48,528 nt of DNA from an uncultured Gemmatimonadota bacterium (GTDB lineage: Bacteria; Gemmatimonadota; Gemmatimonadetes; Gemmatimonadales; Gemmatimonadaceae). The first letter of the stretch is position 1, and each line of letters begins with the position of its first letter. The translations under genes and the position numbers were made by a program. Below the pieces are notes generated by a model that was not told where the DNA came from, made no database searches, and saw only the letters and a program-made list of their open reading frames with translations. The DNA lies in assembly GCA_903910555.1 (NCBI GenBank), contig CAIVZZ010000011.1, positions 1-48,528 of the forward strand, read 5' to 3'. This document shows, piece after piece, positions 13,933-35,400 of this stretch.

Positions 13933-14244
13933 ATGGCCGAAACCCGTCTGCCGCCCATTACGCCCCGGACGCGGGTGGTTGCCTCCCGAAAGCAGCTTTC
14001 CACGAAGCTGTCCGGCGAGGCCGTGATTCTGGGCCTTGAAGACGGCATCTATTACGGACTCGATGGTCCGGGCGCCCGGATCTGGGAGCTGCTCCAGCAG
14101 CCGGCCATGCTCGGCGACGTCGCGGAGACCATCTGCGCGGAGTTCGCGGTTGGACGCGACGCGGCGACGCGAGATTTGCTCAGCCTCGCCGACGATCTCC
14201 TCACCCGCGGCCTGCTCGAACTTGTTCCTGACCCGGCTTCGTAG
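13933..14244 (+). CDS. Lasso peptide B1 protein (PqqD-like precursor recognition element)
   Basis: In lasso biosynthesis the PqqD-like RRE protein binds the precursor leader and delivers it to the B2 protease. This 103-residue protein has the PqqD fold pattern: strand segments around AVILGLEDGIYYGLDG (residues 30-45), then helices with ARIWELLQ and VAETICAEF, ending TRGLLELV. It is the first gene of the plus-strand cluster. Its stop lies 22 bases inside the next gene. It is not evidence for PQQ synthesis, since no pqqABCE genes are nearby. Confidence 0.88.
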   Translation: MAETRLPPITPRTRVVASRKQLSTKLSGEAVILGLEDGIYYGLDGPGARIWELLQQPAMLGDVAETICAEFAVGRDAATRDLLSLADDLLTRGLLELVPDPAS

Positions 14245-14665
14245 TTTTTCGCGATTGCCGGGGGTCGAGCAGCGGCTCGCCGTTCGCGCGATCTGGTGGG
14301 TGCTGATCACGCGGGTGCTGCTGCGGCTGTTTTCCTTCACGCGCGTGCGCGGGCTGACGGTCGGGCGCGCGAACGTGCGCGTTGCAGCGCAAAACGACTG
14401 GCCGCGTGCCGTTCGGCGCGCAGTGATTCGCGCATCGCGATCGGTTCCCGGCACGGCGTGCCTCGCGCAATCGCTTGTCGCCGAACGGTTGCTCCGCGCG
14501 GGTGGTCATCCTGCGCTCCTTTCGATTGGCGTCGCCGATCCCGTGGCCGGCACGGCGCGCAAATCGCTCGATGCGCATGCGTGGGTCGAGAGTGCCGGCG
14601 TGCTCGTCACGGGCGACGATCCGCACGATCAGTATCAACTGCTCGCGACGTTCGGCTCCGGGTGA
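14222..14665 (+). CDS. Lasso peptide B2 protease (transglutaminase-like)
   Basis: B2 is the cysteine protease that removes the leader peptide. The 147-residue length is typical. The family signature is present: catalytic Cys in VPGTACLAQSLVAERLLRAG, then GVADP, then catalytic His in LDAHAWVE, followed by an acidic GDD. A hydrophobic stretch near residues 20-40 is usual in the family. The start is uncertain; the TTG at 14222 gives the family length but overlaps B1 by 23 bases, and a TTG at 14255 is the alternative. The end overlaps the cyclase start by 4 bases (GTGA). Confidence 0.85.
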   Translation: MFLTRLRSFSRLPGVEQRLAVRAIWWVLITRVLLRLFSFTRVRGLTVGRANVRVAAQNDWPRAVRRAVIRASRSVPGTACLAQSLVAERLLRAGGHPALLSIGVADPVAGTARKSLDAHAWVESAGVLVTGDDPHDQYQLLATFGSG

Positions 14666-16065
14666 ACACGTTCGTCGCCGAAATCGTGCGCGGCACGGGC
14701 CCCGTGCGCGCAACAGGGATCGCGGATCCGTCGCAGGGGAGTTGGATTATCGGCGATGTTCGCCTCGATGCGCGCGACGAACTCCGCGATGCACTCGGCG
14801 TCGCGGGGCACACCGCGCCGCGCGACGGGGCTGACATAGAACTCGCGTTCGCCGCCTGGAGCGCGTGGGGCGAACGAGCGACCGACCATCTGCGCGGAGA
14901 TTTCAGCTTCGCGCTCTGGGACTCCGATCGTCGCACGTTCTTTTGCGCGCGCGACGCGCTCGGTGTGCGACCGCTCTATTGGGCTGAGTTGGGCGATCAC
15001 TTCATTTGCAGCAACGCCCTCGCCGGCATCCGCGCGCATCCGCGCGTGACAGCGCGGCTGAACACGCGCGCGATCGTTTCGTTTCTCGAGCGCGGATACA
15101 ACGACGACACGTCGACGACGTCATTCGCGGACATCAATCGGCTCGCGCCCGCGCATCAGCTCGTGGTGCGTGATGATTCGCGCGCAGGGACGCCAGCGCG
15201 CTATTGGGATTTCCCGGTGCCGGAGCCACTGCGGCTGCGCAACGACGCAGCGTACATCGAGCGCTTTCGCGACGTGCTCGGCCATGCAGTGCGCGACCGG
15301 CTGCGTGGCAATAACGCGGGGATCCTGCTCAGCGGCGGACTCGATTCGACGAGTCTTGCGGCGACCGCGCGGCGCGTTGCGCCCGAAGTGAAACTGCTCG
15401 CGTGGACAAATGACATGGGGCCGTCCGCGCCGCACGACGAAGTCCGGCTCGCGAAACAGGTCGCAGCGCGGCTCGGGCTCGCGCACCAGGTGACGCTGCA
15501 TCGCAGTGCGACGCTGTCGCACTTGAGTGAGTCCGGATTTCGAACGCCGGAGCCGCTCGACGAGCCCGAGTGGAGCGGCTGGCGCGATCAACTGCGCGAG
15601 ATTTCCGCGTCGACGTCGACGCTGATCAGTGGCGAGGACGGCGATGCGCTTTTTCGTCCGCCCGGTCTGCTCACCATGCTGCGTGCGTGGCCGGCGCATG
15701 AGGTGATCCGGCGCGTGATCGCATATACAATTTCTTACCGGCATCATCCGCACCTCGGGATCTGGCTGACACGGCGCTTGAACGCGCCATTCATGCGATT
15801 GCCGCGCGGAGCGCATCCCACACGACCGGATGCCGTCGGATATCTGTCGGATCCGATCTGGCAAAGCGTACTCGAAATTGCGCAGCCCTCGTACACCGGC
15901 GTCGCGCTCGACATGGTGTGGCCACTGCTCGACACGCGCGTCATCGACTTCGTCTTTTCGATTCCACCGGTGCCGTGGTGTCAGCGCAAAGAACTCATCC
16001 GTCAGTCGTTTCGCGGCGAACTTCCCGATGAAGTGCTGTCACGAAAGAAGTCACCTCTGCATTAA
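14662..16065 (+). CDS. Lasso cyclase C (asparagine-synthetase-like), ended early by an in-frame TAA
   Basis: The cyclase adenylates the acceptor side chain and forms the macrolactam. The N-terminal half is a glutaminase-like domain that lacks the catalytic Cys at position 2 (VNTFVAEI), as in lasso cyclases. The synthetase half has the PP-motif LLSGGLDSTS at about residues 221-230 and ISGEDGDALF at about 322-331. The GTG start overlaps B2 by 4 bases. The frame stops at SRKKSPLH-TAA (16063-16065), giving 467 residues. Beyond that TAA the same frame stays open for 61 more codons with cyclase-like sequence, so the natural protein was about 529 residues. It is either a nonsense mutation, a sequence error or readthrough; without the tail, activity is doubtful. 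Confidence 0.88.
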   Translation: MNTFVAEIVRGTGPVRATGIADPSQGSWIIGDVRLDARDELRDALGVAGHTAPRDGADIELAFAAWSAWGERATDHLRGDFSFALWDSDRRTFFCARDALGVRPLYWAELGDHFICSNALAGIRAHPRVTARLNTRAIVSFLERGYNDDTSTTSFADINRLAPAHQLVVRDDSRAGTPARYWDFPVPEPLRLRNDAAYIERFRDVLGHAVRDRLRGNNAGILLSGGLDSTSLAATARRVAPEVKLLAWTNDMGPSAPHDEVRLAKQVAARLGLAHQVTLHRSATLSHLSESGFRTPEPLDEPEWSGWRDQLREISASTSTLISGEDGDALFRPPGLLTMLRAWPAHEVIRRVIAYTISYRHHPHLGIWLTRRLNAPFMRLPRGAHPTRPDAVGYLSDPIWQSVLEIAQPSYTGVALDMVWPLLDTRVIDFVFSIPPVPWCQRKELIRQSFRGELPDEVLSRKKSPLH

Positions 16066-16251
16066 TTCTTTGAGACTCAAGTCACAGACTGGCGCGCGGC
16101 ACAGCGTCGGCCATTGTGGAAGTTTAGCGATGCGACTCGCGAGTTCGTTGACAGTGGAAGTGTCGTCAATACATTGAACAGTGGGTCAGTGTGGGACACC
16201 ATCGCGGCGTGGCGAGTGCTGATTCTCGACCAATGGATCCGCGGTCTCTGA
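16063..16251 (+). other. In-frame C-terminal remainder of the lasso cyclase after a premature TAA
   Basis: After the TAA the same frame runs 61 codons to TGA at 16249-16251. It reads first FFETQVTDWR, then RRPLWKFSDATREFVDSGS and finally WRVLILDQWIRGL. This aromatic, amphipathic ending is what follows the KSPL motif in asparagine-synthetase-like cyclases. One base change at 16063 (for example to CAA) would restore a single protein. Confidence 0.75.
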
Positions 16252-16285: not shown

Positions 16286-16468
16286 ATGGCAGACACCACG
16301 AACCACACTCCTCACGGCGCCGCGCGAGACAAAGGCGCGACCCGCAAGCTGTACAGCGCTCCCGTGTTGCGCATATATGGCGACATCGCACTCATTACGA
16401 AGTCGGTCGGGATGAAGGGAACCACATCCGACGGTGGTGGTGCGCCCGGCATGAGCAAGACGAGTTGA
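16286..16468 (+). CDS. Lasso precursor peptide A1
   Basis: A 60-residue peptide with the lasso leader motif YxxPxLxxxGD..xxT: YSAPVLRIYGDIALITK. An AGGA site lies about 9 bases before the ATG; a GTG immediately upstream is an alternative. If the Thr is at -2, the core is SVGMKGTTSDGGGAPGMSKT plus a final Ser, with its only acidic residue at core position 10. Cleavage two residues later would put Gly1 and Asp8 in an 8-residue ring. The C-terminal Ser is a candidate target for the kinase downstream. The stop overlaps the A2 start (TGATG). Confidence 0.85.
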   Translation: MADTTNHTPHGAARDKGATRKLYSAPVLRIYGDIALITKSVGMKGTTSDGGGAPGMSKTS

Positions 16469-16638
16469 TGCAGCCACCGGATATCGAGCGCGAAGTCCCG
16501 CCGTCTCACGTGCCGCTGCGTGCGTACGCGGTGCCGCGCCTTCGCGTGTATGGCGACATTGTCGCGCTCACGCGCGCGATCTCGAACACGTCGCACAACG
16601 CGGACGGCGGCAGCATGGCGCAGAGCAAGACGGCCTAA
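16468..16638 (+). CDS. Lasso precursor peptide A2
   Basis: A 56-residue peptide paralogous to A1, too short for many gene finders. The leader has YAVPRLRVYGDIVALTR, matching A1 closely. The predicted core is AISNTSHNADGGSMAQSKTA, which shares with A1 a DGG block and a KT-plus-one ending but little else. Its only acidic core residue is again ten residues after the Thr(-2) cleavage point. It ends in Ala, so a C-terminal Ser kinase could not act as on A1. ATG overlaps the A1 stop, so the two are translationally coupled. Confidence 0.82.
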   Translation: MQPPDIEREVPPSHVPLRAYAVPRLRVYGDIVALTRAISNTSHNADGGSMAQSKTA

Positions 16639-16673: not shown

Positions 16674-17687
16674 GTGTATGAAATCCCGGATTACAATGCA
16701 ATGTTCGCCGATCACGCGCGCACGACCGCGTATCTCGCGGCGATCGAGCGTGCAGTCCACCCCGGAAATGTCGTAGTCGAAATCGGGACCGGCGTTGGAT
16801 TCTTTGCCGTTGCCGCGTGCCGCGCCGGTGCCCGCCGCGTATATGCGATCGAGATGAATCCCGCGGTTGAACTCGCTGAGCGCGTCGCGGCCGACAACGG
16901 CTGTGCCGACCGCATCACGTTCATCCAGAACGATTCGCGGCGCGTAAGCCTTCCGGAACTCGGCGACGTGCTCGTGAGTGATTTGCGCGGCATTCTCCCG
17001 CCGTACGAATCACACTTCGAAACGCTGGTTGATGCGCGCCGACGGCTTGTGCGTTCCAACGCGACGATCGTTCCGCTGCGTGACACGATGTATGCCGCCC
17101 CGTGCGTGGCGCCCGCGCCATGGCACCGCGATCACCTCGCAGGCGGCGATGCACCGCATGGCATCAACCGGCGCGCAGTCACCGAGCGGGTGCGCTCCGA
17201 CTGGACGCGCTGCCGCCTTGACGCTGGCGACCTGCTCGCCGACGGCGCGCAGTGGGCGGCGCTTGACTATGCGACCATCGATTCTCGCGCAGTGAGCGGA
17301 CAAGCAAGCTGGACGATCGCTCGCGACGGAATCGCCGACGGCGTCGCGGTCTGGTTCGATGCTGATCTGGGATTCGACGTTTTTCTTTCCAACTCGCCGG
17401 CCGCGCCGCGCGCGTTGTATGGGCAGGCGTTCTTTCCGTTTGCGAACGCGCTTGCAGTTGCCGCGGGCGACGCGATCTCCCTGGAGATCCGCGCTCATCT
17501 GGTGGGCGACGACTACTTGTGGTCGTGGGACACGACTTTCACACCGGCCGCGCATCAGTTAGCGCCGGTTGTATTCAGGCAATCAAATCTCGCCGCCCGC
17601 GTCATCTCGCTCGGGCGGCTGCGGCAGCCGGGTTCGCGAGACGACAAGGATCAGGACGCATTCCCGACTATTCCGTCTACGGGCTGA
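16674..17687 (+). CDS. PRMT-like SAM-dependent methyltransferase
   Basis: A 337-residue class I methyltransferase. The SAM-binding motif I is VVVEIGTGVGFFAVAA (about residues 33-48); motif II places an acidic residue at VYAIEMNP. FIQNDSRRVSL and LVSDLRGILPPYE follow; the last resembles the arginine-methyltransferase double-E region, with one Glu replaced by Arg-Gly. The C-terminal half is beta-barrel-like. The GTG start gives the family beginning YEIPDYNAMFADHART. It lies 35 bases after precursor A2, so it may methylate the lasso peptide, but its substrate is not shown. Confidence 0.82.
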   Translation: MYEIPDYNAMFADHARTTAYLAAIERAVHPGNVVVEIGTGVGFFAVAACRAGARRVYAIEMNPAVELAERVAADNGCADRITFIQNDSRRVSLPELGDVLVSDLRGILPPYESHFETLVDARRRLVRSNATIVPLRDTMYAAPCVAPAPWHRDHLAGGDAPHGINRRAVTERVRSDWTRCRLDAGDLLADGAQWAALDYATIDSRAVSGQASWTIARDGIADGVAVWFDADLGFDVFLSNSPAAPRALYGQAFFPFANALAVAAGDAISLEIRAHLVGDDYLWSWDTTFTPAAHQLAPVVFRQSNLAARVISLGRLRQPGSRDDKDQDAFPTIPSTG

Positions 17688-18619
17688 CGCTCTCCTCGAG
17701 CGCGGCGCTGTTCGGTCTCCCCGCCGCGCCCGTGCGGCGCGCGCCGGATGTGTCGCTCGCGCTTGATAGCGCGCCGCGCTGGCGCCCGGAATCGCTCGAT
17801 GGCGCTGCGGTCCGCTATCGCACGCCGGTCAGCGAATCGCGTCCGGACGATAATCTGATTGTGTACGAGCTCCCGGAAGGATTTGTGTTTCGGTATGCGG
17901 ATGCCACGGTGTTTCATGTCGCTCGCGACGGGCGCGCGATCTGGGCCACCTGGGCGGCATCGTCGACGCTCGCCGATACGGAGACGTATCTGTTGGGACC
18001 GGTGCTCGGGTTTGTGCAACGACTCATGGGCATTCTCTGCTTGCATGCGAGCGCGGTCGTTGTCGACGATGTCGCGATCGCCCTTTGCGGGCCGGCGTAT
18101 GCAGGGAAAAGCACGACTGCCGGCGCCTTCGCCGCTGCGGGATACGGCGTACTCGCAGACGACATGACCGCGCTTCGCTTCGACGCCGGCACCGTAACAG
18201 CGATGCCGGCCTACGATCATCTGCGCGTGTGGGAAGAGTCCGAGCGGATTCTGCTCGGCAGCAGCGGAACGCTTCCGCGCCTCACGCCGACCTGGGACAA
18301 ACGCGCACTCAACATGCGCGGCCAGGGGTGGATCTGGTGCGACGAGCCTGTGCGACTCGGCGCCATCGTGCTGCTCGACACACGCGTCGACGCCGCGTAC
18401 GCGCCGCGCATTGATGCGGTGCCGGCGGGTGAAGCATTCGTGGCGATCGCGGCGAACAGCTACGCGAACTATTTGCTCGACGATCGCATGCGCGCGGAGG
18501 AGTTTGCGGCAGTCGCGCGGCTCATGGCGATGGTGGATGTCGTGCGCGTCACGCCGCACTTGGATCCCGCCCGGATTGGTGATCTCGTTCGTACGATTGC
18601 CGCGGTGGTGCGCGCGTGA
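17660..18619 (+). CDS. HPr-kinase-like lasso peptide kinase
   Basis: HPr kinase homologues in lasso clusters phosphorylate the peptide tail (C-terminal Ser in known cases). The P-loop is GPAYAGKST at about residues 143-151, preceded by LHASAVVVDD and followed by GYGVLADDMTAL, the classic HprK layout. The start is uncertain: homology begins at DYSVYGLTLS, where only ATT (17660) or CTG (17684, overlapping the previous stop) is available. The first standard codon after it is GTG at 17732, and the frame is open back to GTG 17519 inside the methyltransferase. The end overlaps the next gene by 4 bases (GTGA). Confidence 0.8.
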   Translation: MPDYSVYGLTLSSSAALFGLPAAPVRRAPDVSLALDSAPRWRPESLDGAAVRYRTPVSESRPDDNLIVYELPEGFVFRYADATVFHVARDGRAIWATWAASSTLADTETYLLGPVLGFVQRLMGILCLHASAVVVDDVAIALCGPAYAGKSTTAGAFAAAGYGVLADDMTALRFDAGTVTAMPAYDHLRVWEESERILLGSSGTLPRLTPTWDKRALNMRGQGWIWCDEPVRLGAIVLLDTRVDAAYAPRIDAVPAGEAFVAIAANSYANYLLDDRMRAEEFAAVARLMAMVDVVRVTPHLDPARIGDLVRTIAAVVRA

Positions 18620-19770
18620 GCGTGTCGCGGCCGGCGTACGACCTGCTGCTGGCGTGTGCGGTGTGGGAGCCGTCGGCGCCGCAACTCGATCTCATCCGTA
18701 CGCGCGCGGAGGCGCGCATCGATTGGAATAACTGGCTGGAGCTCGTGCACGCGCACCGGTTGGTGCCGCATGCGCAGCGCGCGCTCGGCGCGGTGCGCGC
18801 GATCTCGCCGCCGCCGGTGGCCGAAGCATTGATGCGGGAAACCGTCACGATCGCCGCGCACTCGCTGGCGCGGACACAGCAGCTGGCTTCGCTGCTGCAG
18901 GCCCTCGATCGCGACGGGGTGCGCGCGCTGCCGTTCAAAGGTCCGGCGCTCTCGCTCGCGGCATACGGCGAGCTCGGCGTGCGCGACTCTGTCGATCTCG
19001 ACGTGGTCGTGTGTCCGCCGGATATCGATCGCGCCCGTGAATCGCTGCTGCGCGCGGGTTATACGCCGCGCACAGAAATGTCGCCGGCGCAGGAGCGGAC
19101 GCTGCAGCGGAGCTTCGGCCATTTTCAGTACGCGGCGCCTGACGGCGGAGCGTGGGTCGAGCTGCATTGGCGGTTCGCGGCGCCGCGCTACCCGTGGTCG
19201 ATTCCAGCGGAAGAGGTTTTCGCGCGCGCAATCACTGTCGATCTCGCGGGCGTGAAGACCGCGAGCCCGGATGCGACCGATCAGCTGCTGCTGCAGCTGA
19301 TGCACGGCGCGCGGCACCAATGGGAGCGGCTGGAATGGCTCGTGGCGTTTGCACAGCTGCTGCGGCACGCACGCGAGAACGAAGAAGTGCTGATCGAGCG
19401 CGCGAACGCGAACGGGTCGTCGCGCGCGCTCGGACTCGCGCTTCGGCTCGCGCACGATCTGCTCGGCGCGCCGCTCTCGCCGCGGTTGTCCGCACTCGCC
19501 GGCGAGGAACGGACCGCGGCGCGCGCCGCGCAGATCGTCGGGGCGATCGAGGCCGCGAAGTTCTCGACGAACCAGCCTTACGTTTTCAACCTGTCGATGA
19601 TGGATCGCAGCGTTGATCGTGCGCGCTACATCGCGCTTAGCGTGCTGTCACCGACAGAGCGCGAGTGGGAACTCGTGCGTCTCCCCGACTGGCTCGTGTT
19701 CCTGTACTACCCGATCCGGATCGTGCGCGTGACGTGGCTCAGGGTGCGATCGCTGTTCGTCAGACGTTGA
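18616..19770 (+). CDS. Nucleotidyltransferase-family protein of the lasso cluster
   Basis: A 384-residue protein of the uncharacterised nucleotidyltransferase family. The core has LPFKGPALSLAAYGELGVRD (about residues 103-123), then SVDLDVVV with the metal-binding Asp pair, then WVELHWRF. In the pseudomycoidin lasso system a kinase and such a nucleotidyltransferase act in series to decorate the phosphorylated tail with sugar, and here the two genes are likewise adjacent and overlapping. GTG start. The 3' end overlaps the 3' end of ychF, on the opposite strand, by 11 bases, marking the end of the cluster; no transporter follows. Confidence 0.82.
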   Translation: MSVSRPAYDLLLACAVWEPSAPQLDLIRTRAEARIDWNNWLELVHAHRLVPHAQRALGAVRAISPPPVAEALMRETVTIAAHSLARTQQLASLLQALDRDGVRALPFKGPALSLAAYGELGVRDSVDLDVVVCPPDIDRARESLLRAGYTPRTEMSPAQERTLQRSFGHFQYAAPDGGAWVELHWRFAAPRYPWSIPAEEVFARAITVDLAGVKTASPDATDQLLLQLMHGARHQWERLEWLVAFAQLLRHARENEEVLIERANANGSSRALGLALRLAHDLLGAPLSPRLSALAGEERTAARAAQIVGAIEAAKFSTNQPYVFNLSMMDRSVDRARYIALSVLSPTEREWELVRLPDWLVFLYYPIRIVRVTWLRVRSLFVRR

Positions 19771-32435: not shown

Positions 32436-35400
32436 ATGACGATCTTCGAGCTTATCGCGCGTGAACGTGCCCGTGTCGCACAGCTGGTGCGCGCGGATGC
32501 GTGGACGCGCGCCGCAGTCGCGCTCGTCGCGGCGCTGACGCTCGGTGCGCTCTTGCTTGGCGGGTCGCGATGGATCGCGCTCCCGCGGATTGTGCCGTTC
32601 TTGGTCTGGGCGGTCGCGATTGCCGCGGCGGTGTATCTCGTGCGGCGCGGCGTGGACGCGCTGCACCGCGTGGCGGCGAGTGTCGCCGTCGCCGACGCGG
32701 TGGAGCGCGAGCAGAAGATGCGCCGCGGCGCGGTACGCGGAATTATCGAACTCTCGGGCGACACCAGCGCCTTTGCGGCGTACGCAGCACGGCGTCTCGG
32801 CGAAACGCTCGCGAGTCGCGGCAGTGCGCTCGCGCCGGAATTGCAGCGGCGACTGCGGCGCGGCGCCATGGGCGCCGGCGCGGTGCTCGTGCCGGTGGTG
32901 CTCATTGCGACGTTCGTTGCGGCGAAGCGCCCTGATGGTTTTCGTGCGCTCGCGCATCCGGTTGACGCATGGCGCGGCGCGCTGCTGCCGCGCCTGAAGA
33001 TTTCTGACGCGCCGTCGCGCGCGCTGCGCGGGTCGACGCTGAAGCTCACGGTGAGCGCGAGTGGACGTTCGAGCGTCTCGCTGCGCCGGCGTACGACTGG
33101 AAATGCGTGGGTTGAGACCGCGCTCGAGGTTTCGAACGGCACGGTGAGCACAGAGCTAGGTCCGCTCGATGCCGATCTCACGCTCGTGGCGAGCGACGGC
33201 CGCGCGGTGAGTGATACGGTTGTCGTGCGTGTTGTGGACCGGCCCTTTCTTGGCGATGTCGCGGTGCGCGCGACGTATCCGGCGTATCTGCATCGTGCCA
33301 GCGAGGCGTTGCCGGGCGATGCGCCTATCCGCGTGCCGAAGGGAACAGAGTTGGAGATTGAGGGGCACGCGTCGGAGGCGCTTGCCTCGGTGTGGCTCGT
33401 CGCCGCGCATGACAGCATCAAACTTGCGCCATCAGAGCGCCGTTTCAGCGGACGCTTCACTCCGTCCGCAACCGGGACCTGGGGATGGAGCGCGCGCGGC
33501 GCGAGCACGGCGATCGCGGATGTCCCCGCGCCGCTTACGGTGGAAGTGGTGCCGGATTCAGCACCCGTCGCGGAGATTCTCCAGCCGGCGTCGGACAGTC
33601 TCGCCCTCCCGAACGTGAAAATCGAAATGCAGCTCGTGGCGAGCGATGACCACGGCTTGCAGTCGGTGACGCTGAAGACGTGGAAGGTCACGCGCGCCGG
33701 AGTTGCGCAGGCCGCGAGTGCTGCGAAACTCGCCGGCGGCGGGATTCCCGACTGGGCTGGTGTGGTCACGCTCGATCTCGCCGCGTTCCCGCTCGATCCG
33801 GGCGACGCTGTGCATGTGCAGCTCGTTGCGCGCGATGAATCGCCGGCTGGCCAGGAAGGACTGAGCCGGGAGCTGATTCTTCGCGTGCCGGCGACGGATG
33901 AACAGCGCGCAGCGGCTCGTGCAGCCGGTGATTCTGCGGCGGCACGTGCGGCCGCCGCCGTGAAGGCGCAGGGCGGACTTCAGCAGCGTACGGCCGACGC
34001 TGCGCGCGCTGCGGCAACCGCGAATCAGGCGACCGGCGCAAAGCCCGGCGACCCGATGAAGTACGAGGGCGCGCAGCAGGCCAAGGCGCTCGCGACAGAA
34101 CAGAAAGAGATGGCCGCGCGCGTACAACAGCTGCAACAGGCGTCGAAGATGCTGGAGGATCGCCTGCGCGCGGCCGGCGCGCTCGACACGAATCTCTCTG
34201 CGCAACTGCGTGAGGCGCAGAAACTTTTGCGCGAGGCACTGACACCGGAGATGCTCGAGGCGCTGAAAAAGCTCGACAACTCCGCGCAGCAGCTCTCGGG
34301 CGATCAAGCCAAGCAGTCGCTGCAGCAGCTCTCGGATCAGCAGAAGAAAATGCGCGAAGCGCTCGAGAAGAGCGCGGAGATTCTCAAGCGCGCCGCGCTC
34401 GAGGGGTCGATGCAGACGCTGAAGGACGAGGCGACGGAGCTCGCGAAGAGTGAGCGCGCGCGGGCGGACAGCGCGAAGTCGGGATCGCCGATGCCTGACG
34501 ACGCGAAGCGGCTGCAGCAGCGCACCGATCAACTCGCGAAGGATCTCGAGCAGCTCAAGGAGCGGCTCAAGCAGGAGAACGCAGATCCTGCGGCAAAGAA
34601 AGCAGATGAGGCGCTGAAGGATCTCGAGCAGGCGCAGAACGCGCTCGAACAGAAGGGCGGCGCGCAAAGTCCGCAGCAGCAGAAAGGTCAGCAGGGTCAG
34701 CAGAACCAGCAGACCGGCCAGTCAGGCGGCCAGCAACAGAGTGGCCAGCAGGGCGGGCAGCAGGGCGGCCAGCCGCAGAACGGCCAGCAGCAGGGGAGCA
34801 AGCCGAGCGGCCAGCAGCAGAGCGGTCAGCAGCAGAGCGGTCAACAGAGCGGTCAACAGAGCGGCCAGCAAAGTGGACAGCAGGGCAGCCAGCAGTCAGC
34901 GAATCAGGCGGCTGACGCGATGGAGCGTGCGTCGAAGGCGCTGGGCGAAGGCCGCAAGCAGCAGGTCGACGAATGGAAACAGGAACTCACGGGCGAGCTC
35001 GACCAGTCGCTGCAGGAAATGCTGCAGCTCGCGCGCGAGCAGGACGGCCTCGCAGATAAAGCCAAGAAAAATCCGATGGATCCGAACCTGCGCGGCGAGG
35101 AAAGTGCGCTGCAGCAGGGTGTGCAGAAAGCGTCGGAGCGGCTCGGCTCACAGGCGAAGCGTTCTGCTCTCGTCTCGCCGCGGTCGACGCGCGCGATGAG
35201 CGACGCAGAACAGAAAGTGGAGCAGGCCGCGCGCGACGCGGGCGATCCGCGTACGGCAACGCAGGCCTCGCAATCGATGAGCGACGCCGCCAATGCGCTG
35301 CGCCAAACGGCTGCAGCGCTCGCGCGCGATCGTGAACGGGCGGGGAATTCGCAATCAGCGTCAGGACTTCCCGAGCTGCTCGCGCAGCTGCAGCAGCTCG

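Follow-up and report, generated by a model that had tools for sequence, protein, structure and literature searches.

An in-frame stop codon probably inactivates the cyclase of an otherwise intact lasso peptide cluster in an uncultured Gemmatimonadota bacterium

Known lasso systems and the cluster in the window

Lasso peptide clusters of the B1-B2-C-A type are known to occur together with genes for a methyltransferase, an HprK-like kinase and a nucleotidyltransferase-like protein. In the microcin J25 system, the peptidase and the cyclase are each active only with the other one present, even as an inactive mutant (PMC13352647). A 2026 review states that no crystal structure of a lasso cyclase is available (PMC13352647). 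The cyclase considered here shares an N-terminal glutaminase-like domain and a C-terminal ATP-PP synthetase domain with the fold of asparagine synthetase B, beta-lactam synthetase and carbapenam synthetase. The window is the whole stretch of 48,528 nucleotides from an uncultured Gemmatimonadota bacterium (family Gemmatimonadaceae; contig CAIVZZ010000011.1) and contains a lasso cluster with the same gene set, gene order and domain architecture as the clusters described. In contrast to the McjC/FusC-type lasso cyclases, its cyclase C stops shortly past an invariant lysine, and no other member found does so. Searching the literature for truncated lasso cyclases returned nothing relevant.

The genes of the cluster lie on the plus strand, and those around the cyclase are intact. 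The putative PqqD-like leader-binding protein (RRE) B1 (13933–14244; 103 aa) is 66% identical to its counterpart in the genome G002 and matches NF033536 (lasso_PqqD_Bac) with an E-value of 3.7e-13 and 49 bits against a curated cut-off of 80. The gene B2 (14237–14665, start approximate; about 142 aa) scores 73.1 bits against NF033537 (lasso_biosyn_B2), above the cut-off of 33, and is thereby assigned as the lasso leader peptidase. Downstream of the cyclase and two precursor genes, a SAM-dependent methyltransferase-like protein of 337 aa is encoded (16674–17687; 60% identical in G002, at the same place). It is followed by an HPr-kinase-related protein of about 310 aa (17687–18619; 65% identical in G002), which matches TIGR04352 (HprK_rel_A) below the cut-off with an E-value of 1e-8. 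A nucleotidyltransferase-like protein of 384 aa (18616–19770) is 80% identical in G002; it has no NCBIfam match and is named by analogy with other lasso clusters.

The interrupted cyclase frame

As annotated, the cyclase gene (14662–16062, plus strand) starts with GTG at 14662 and comprises 467 codons with the C-terminus RKKSPLH. Codon 468, at 16063–16065, is a TAA in frame with this start, and direct reading of the surrounding DNA gives CGA AAG AAG TCA CCT CTG CAT TAA TTC TTT GAG. The frame then continues through 61 sense codons (16066–16248) ending in AAWRVLILDQWIRGL and closes with TGA at 16249–16251. The original prediction had given both the position of the stop and the sequence of the tail correctly; its joined length of 529 was likewise confirmed as 529 codons, the stop position being counted. 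The tail stretch (16066–16251) keeps the conserved residues D497, R518, L522, D523 and W525.

The best NCBIfam match of C is the lasso cyclase model NF033535 (E-value 1.1e-59), the score lying under a very high curated cut-off of 525 bits that intact relatives do not reach either. The gene adjoins B1, B2 and the precursors, and this synteny is kept in relatives; on these grounds it can be regarded as a lasso cyclase homologue. The joined frame is 58% identical to the intact Gemmatimonadota orthologue in G002, located in the same chromosomal slot. The tail belongs to the same protein, as had been proposed from the sequence alone: it matches the contiguous C-termini of relatives, and a tblastn search with the tail alone gave E-values of 7e-14 in G002 (locus L002, the closest, with 46.7% identity) and 3e-11 in G005. 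The profile of the relatives' cyclases runs straight through the TAA with 720 bits, covering model positions 1–524 of 529.

A profile search of 179 family genomes, one genome per species, yielded 39 matches in 35 genomes. Among about 36 cyclases of these 35 genomes, that of the window is the only one with an internal stop; two other rows flagged with TGA merely showed the terminal stops of the genes themselves. The frame of every relative examined extends about 60 residues beyond the invariant lysine of the RxK motif. Family members normally ending at KSPL had been named as the finding that would speak against a premature stop, and none of the relatives ends there. Locus L042 was considered as such a member and rejected, as the local match stopped at 468 yet the frame continues.

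The encoded product retains the ATP-pyrophosphatase motif SGGxDS (SGGLDS, residues 224–229) and the invariant Lys463, whose counterpart in the alignment is the lysine of the asparagine synthetase (ASNS) RPK; the product ends four residues after Lys463. It covers positions 2–287 of the 354 of the Pfam Asn_synthase model, versus 2–353 for the joined frame. The truncation thus removes the last fifth of this domain, or roughly the last eighth of the enzyme, and the C-terminal helices of a complete Asn_synthase domain are missing. When the joined chain was modelled with AlphaFold2 (mean pLDDT 90), residues 469–529 came out helical with high confidence (469–480, 490–493, 498–507 and 510–528), the pLDDT being about 92–96 over 490–529. 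This full-length model aligns to its last residue with TsnB9, beta-lactam synthetase, AsnB and carbapenam synthetase (VIA Z 23–28). The solved members of the fold reach the end of the full-length model, whereas the product encoded in the window lacks the C-terminal helices. The truncated chain is modelled with the same fold, and confidence is lower at the new end and at residues 281–310, where the pLDDT per block of ten falls from 85, 87 and 91 in the joined chain to 72, 66 and 82; this drop is weak evidence, since AlphaFold is no test of stability.

Translation is expected to halt four residues past the invariant lysine, so that the final helices are lost together with the terminal part of the Asn_synthase domain. 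Instability or inactivity of the truncated cyclase is the most likely consequence, in which case no mature lasso peptide would be made. The suggestion in the original prediction that the cluster may be silent is thus shared here as a possibility, the key enzyme being without its conserved C-terminus. By analogy with the mutual dependence of the two microcin J25 enzymes, an unstable cyclase might also halt the removal of the leader. No second lasso cyclase was found in the genome of the window.

Origin and age of the stop

The residue aligned to the TAA is glycine in 15 of 18 relatives and alanine, tryptophan or proline in the remaining ones. In the closest relative, the site reads CTG CGC GGA TTT, with GGA at the position of the stop. 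The explanation of the stop by a single base, given in the original prediction, is insecure for this reason: the conversion of a glycine codon into TAA takes two changes. One change would be enough only if the site had already left glycine, and from the codon typical of the family the stop would not simply be a one-base event unless the site changed earlier. Two adjoining residues of the window likewise stand out, with RKK in place of RPK and H in place of R.

Compared with 13 outgroups, the tail of the window shows identities practically equal to those of the intact G002 tail. When neutral decay of the G002 tail was simulated, a similarity at least as high as that of the window was reached in 36% of the runs at 0.05 substitutions per site, in 6% at 0.1 and in 0.3% at 0.2. 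Neutral decay of at least about 0.1 substitutions per site would thus fit the tail poorly (P 0.06). In the cyclase body, one of 58 near-invariant sites deviates, and intact relatives are alike in this respect; third codon positions differ by 52% from G002. The absence of decay in the tail and body implies that the stop is either young relative to the divergence of the clusters or absent from the organism. The tail also has a lower GC3, which was discounted as evidence of decay since it recurs in intact relatives whose genes follow the same order.

Other broken genes occur in the genome. A second in-frame TAA lies near position 35042 of its contig (L119, G000:C17), where it interrupts a GGDEF protein within the response-regulator domain; the same site is GAG in G012 and GAA in G010, which are 95% and 94% identical. 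A peptide-transporter-type (Dpp/Opp) ABC ATPase is spread over two frames (L116, G000:C8:58489–58967, minus strand), which may reflect a frameshift or an assembly indel. This makes two breaks in conserved genes per about 126 domain matches, a rate that fits ordinary pseudogenes or a modest base-error rate. A coding-score scan for more in-frame stops mainly picked up adjacent genes sharing a frame, together with antisense frames, and so does not add to this count.

The lasso cluster is located between rpsF (S6) and ychF, and the clusters of G002, G005 and G016 occupy the same slot. The sister species G012 shares 96% identity with the window in rpsF and 94% in ychF, and the interval of 1.2 kb between its two genes holds no lasso gene. 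The genus can thus do without the cluster, which makes a loss of the cyclase plausible. Within the G012 slot (L217, G012:C33:33421–34607) lie a frame resembling a methyltransferase gene and, beside rpsF, a short duplicate of the 3' end of ychF.

Taken together, these data point to a recent, lineage-specific nonsense mutation as the probable origin of the TAA, one that would inactivate the cyclase of an otherwise intact lasso cluster. The stop is presumably present in the organism and not merely in the assembly, and the cyclase activity is presumably lost. The gene carries a disabling mutation missing from its orthologues, as pseudogenes do. It shares with an ordinary nonsense-mutation pseudogene a single in-frame stop in an otherwise intact gene, a dispensable accessory locus and the company of other broken genes; it differs in that the stop is too young for further decay and that the sequence alone cannot separate it from an assembly error. 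A base error or a strain mixture in the assembly, with a sense codon at 16063 and a complete cyclase in the organism, is the main rival and carries a real though clearly smaller chance. It would account for the undecayed tail and body and for neighbouring genes that are all intact, and the frameshift and the other in-frame TAA per about 126 domain matches are what a modest base-error rate could yield. However, this handful of broken genes is also compatible with ordinary pseudogene content, the core genes of the contig appear full-length, and a true glycine codon, as in most relatives, would need two adjacent wrong bases.

A real stop combined with a still active cyclase of 467 residues, as the original prediction also considered, is unlikely; the last 61 residues would then be dispensable in this lineage. 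Lys463 and all earlier motifs are kept, the body is undecayed and the model of the truncated chain preserves the fold; the clustered changes of RPK to RKK, R to H and glycine to stop could moreover represent co-adaptation. On the other hand, none of the relatives is truncated, the lost R518, W525 and L522-D523 are conserved and still encoded in the untranslated DNA, and the modelled confidence falls at 281–310 and at the new end. The missing decay says little when fewer than about 0.1 substitutions per site have accumulated after the stop arose. It is more doubtful still that the lineage uses a minimal cyclase of 467 residues and that the former 3' end has been freed to serve as a mere precursor promoter and leader. 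Read-through of the TAA had also been put forward; a suppressor tRNA or stimulated read-through would give a full-length cyclase, and the post-stop frame is indeed open and conserved. This is very improbable: no tRNA with the anticodon UUA (TTA) is present among the 49 tRNA genes of the genome, and TAA is an ordinary stop that terminates the second precursor gene of the same cluster and, in about 0.85 Mb of the genome sampled, 70 of 344 long ORFs. Folding revealed no stimulating RNA structure, the RNA downstream of and around the stop being less structured than shuffled sequences (z +2.3). Hardly any weight can be given to a split cyclase in which the tail, an intact frame of 61 codons, is translated separately and complements the body. 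The tail frame contains no early ATG or GTG and no evident ribosome-binding site, the first possible start in this frame is a TTG some 16 codons into the tail, and no relative in the family profile survey is split. Apart from these questions, a tRNA-Sec(tca) gene is predicted in the genome of the window, and the organism may make selenoproteins.

A nonsense mutation of this kind is an ordinary event in an interesting enzyme. Genome miners would score the cluster as complete, and a failed expression could be misread if the cut in the key enzyme were overlooked. Should the truncated enzyme prove active, it would mark the minimal form of a lasso cyclase.

A promoter-like site in the cyclase tail and the precursor peptides

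The tail contains a promoter-like sequence TTGACA-N16-TACATT (10 of 12 positions) at 16148–16175 on the plus strand, 110 nt before the first precursor gene. This site is a candidate promoter of the precursor genes. Sites with 9–10 of 12 positions are found at nearly matching places in G002, G016, G006, G008 and G017; L035 has one as well, at a different place in its tail. The pattern TTGAC(A/G)-N16-TANNTT occurs in the cyclase tails of the window and of L002, L004, L006, L007, L008 and L035; for L006, L007 and L004, the order of cyclase followed by precursor was confirmed by reading frames. Resampling of synonymous codons seldom reproduces such sites (P 0 to 0.03). The site is present at 7 of the 11 loci with a precursor directly downstream of the cyclase, the four others being without it, and the roughly twenty loci where no downstream precursor is recognised all lack it (best 5–8 of 12). 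This association is suggestive; six of the seven loci belong to one genus, so that the seven cannot be counted as independent events. On this view, selection may still act on the tail DNA despite the stop, and transcription of the precursors may continue, probably from this candidate promoter within the cut-off stretch. In relatives with downstream precursors, a site within the 3' end of the cyclase gene suggests a route to stronger transcription of the precursor than of the enzymes.

The first putative precursor, A1 (16286–16468, plus strand; 60 aa, intact), matches NF033528 with an E-value of 2e-5, below the cut-off, and is 56% identical over 43 aa in G002. The second one, A2 (16468–16638, plus strand; 56 aa, intact), ends in TAA, and its NCBIfam score is also below the cut-off. 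Both carry the leader motif YxxPxL...G...T, and the acceptor Asp follows the Thr by 11 residues instead of 9–10. The same distance of 11 residues is found in the precursors of L002, L008, L033, L007, L035, L037 and L040. Lasso rings are known with 7–9 residues. A Thr at position −2 would mean a ring of 10 residues; otherwise the Thr would be at −3, and residue 1 would be V, I, T or N. There is a precedent for Asn1 in metanodin (PMC12670498). The precursors of L233 (G175) and L035 carry two Cys in the core (TQTTTCAKGYNDGTATGCKNSFKKS) and could possibly give rise to Gemmatimonadota lasso peptides with a disulfide.
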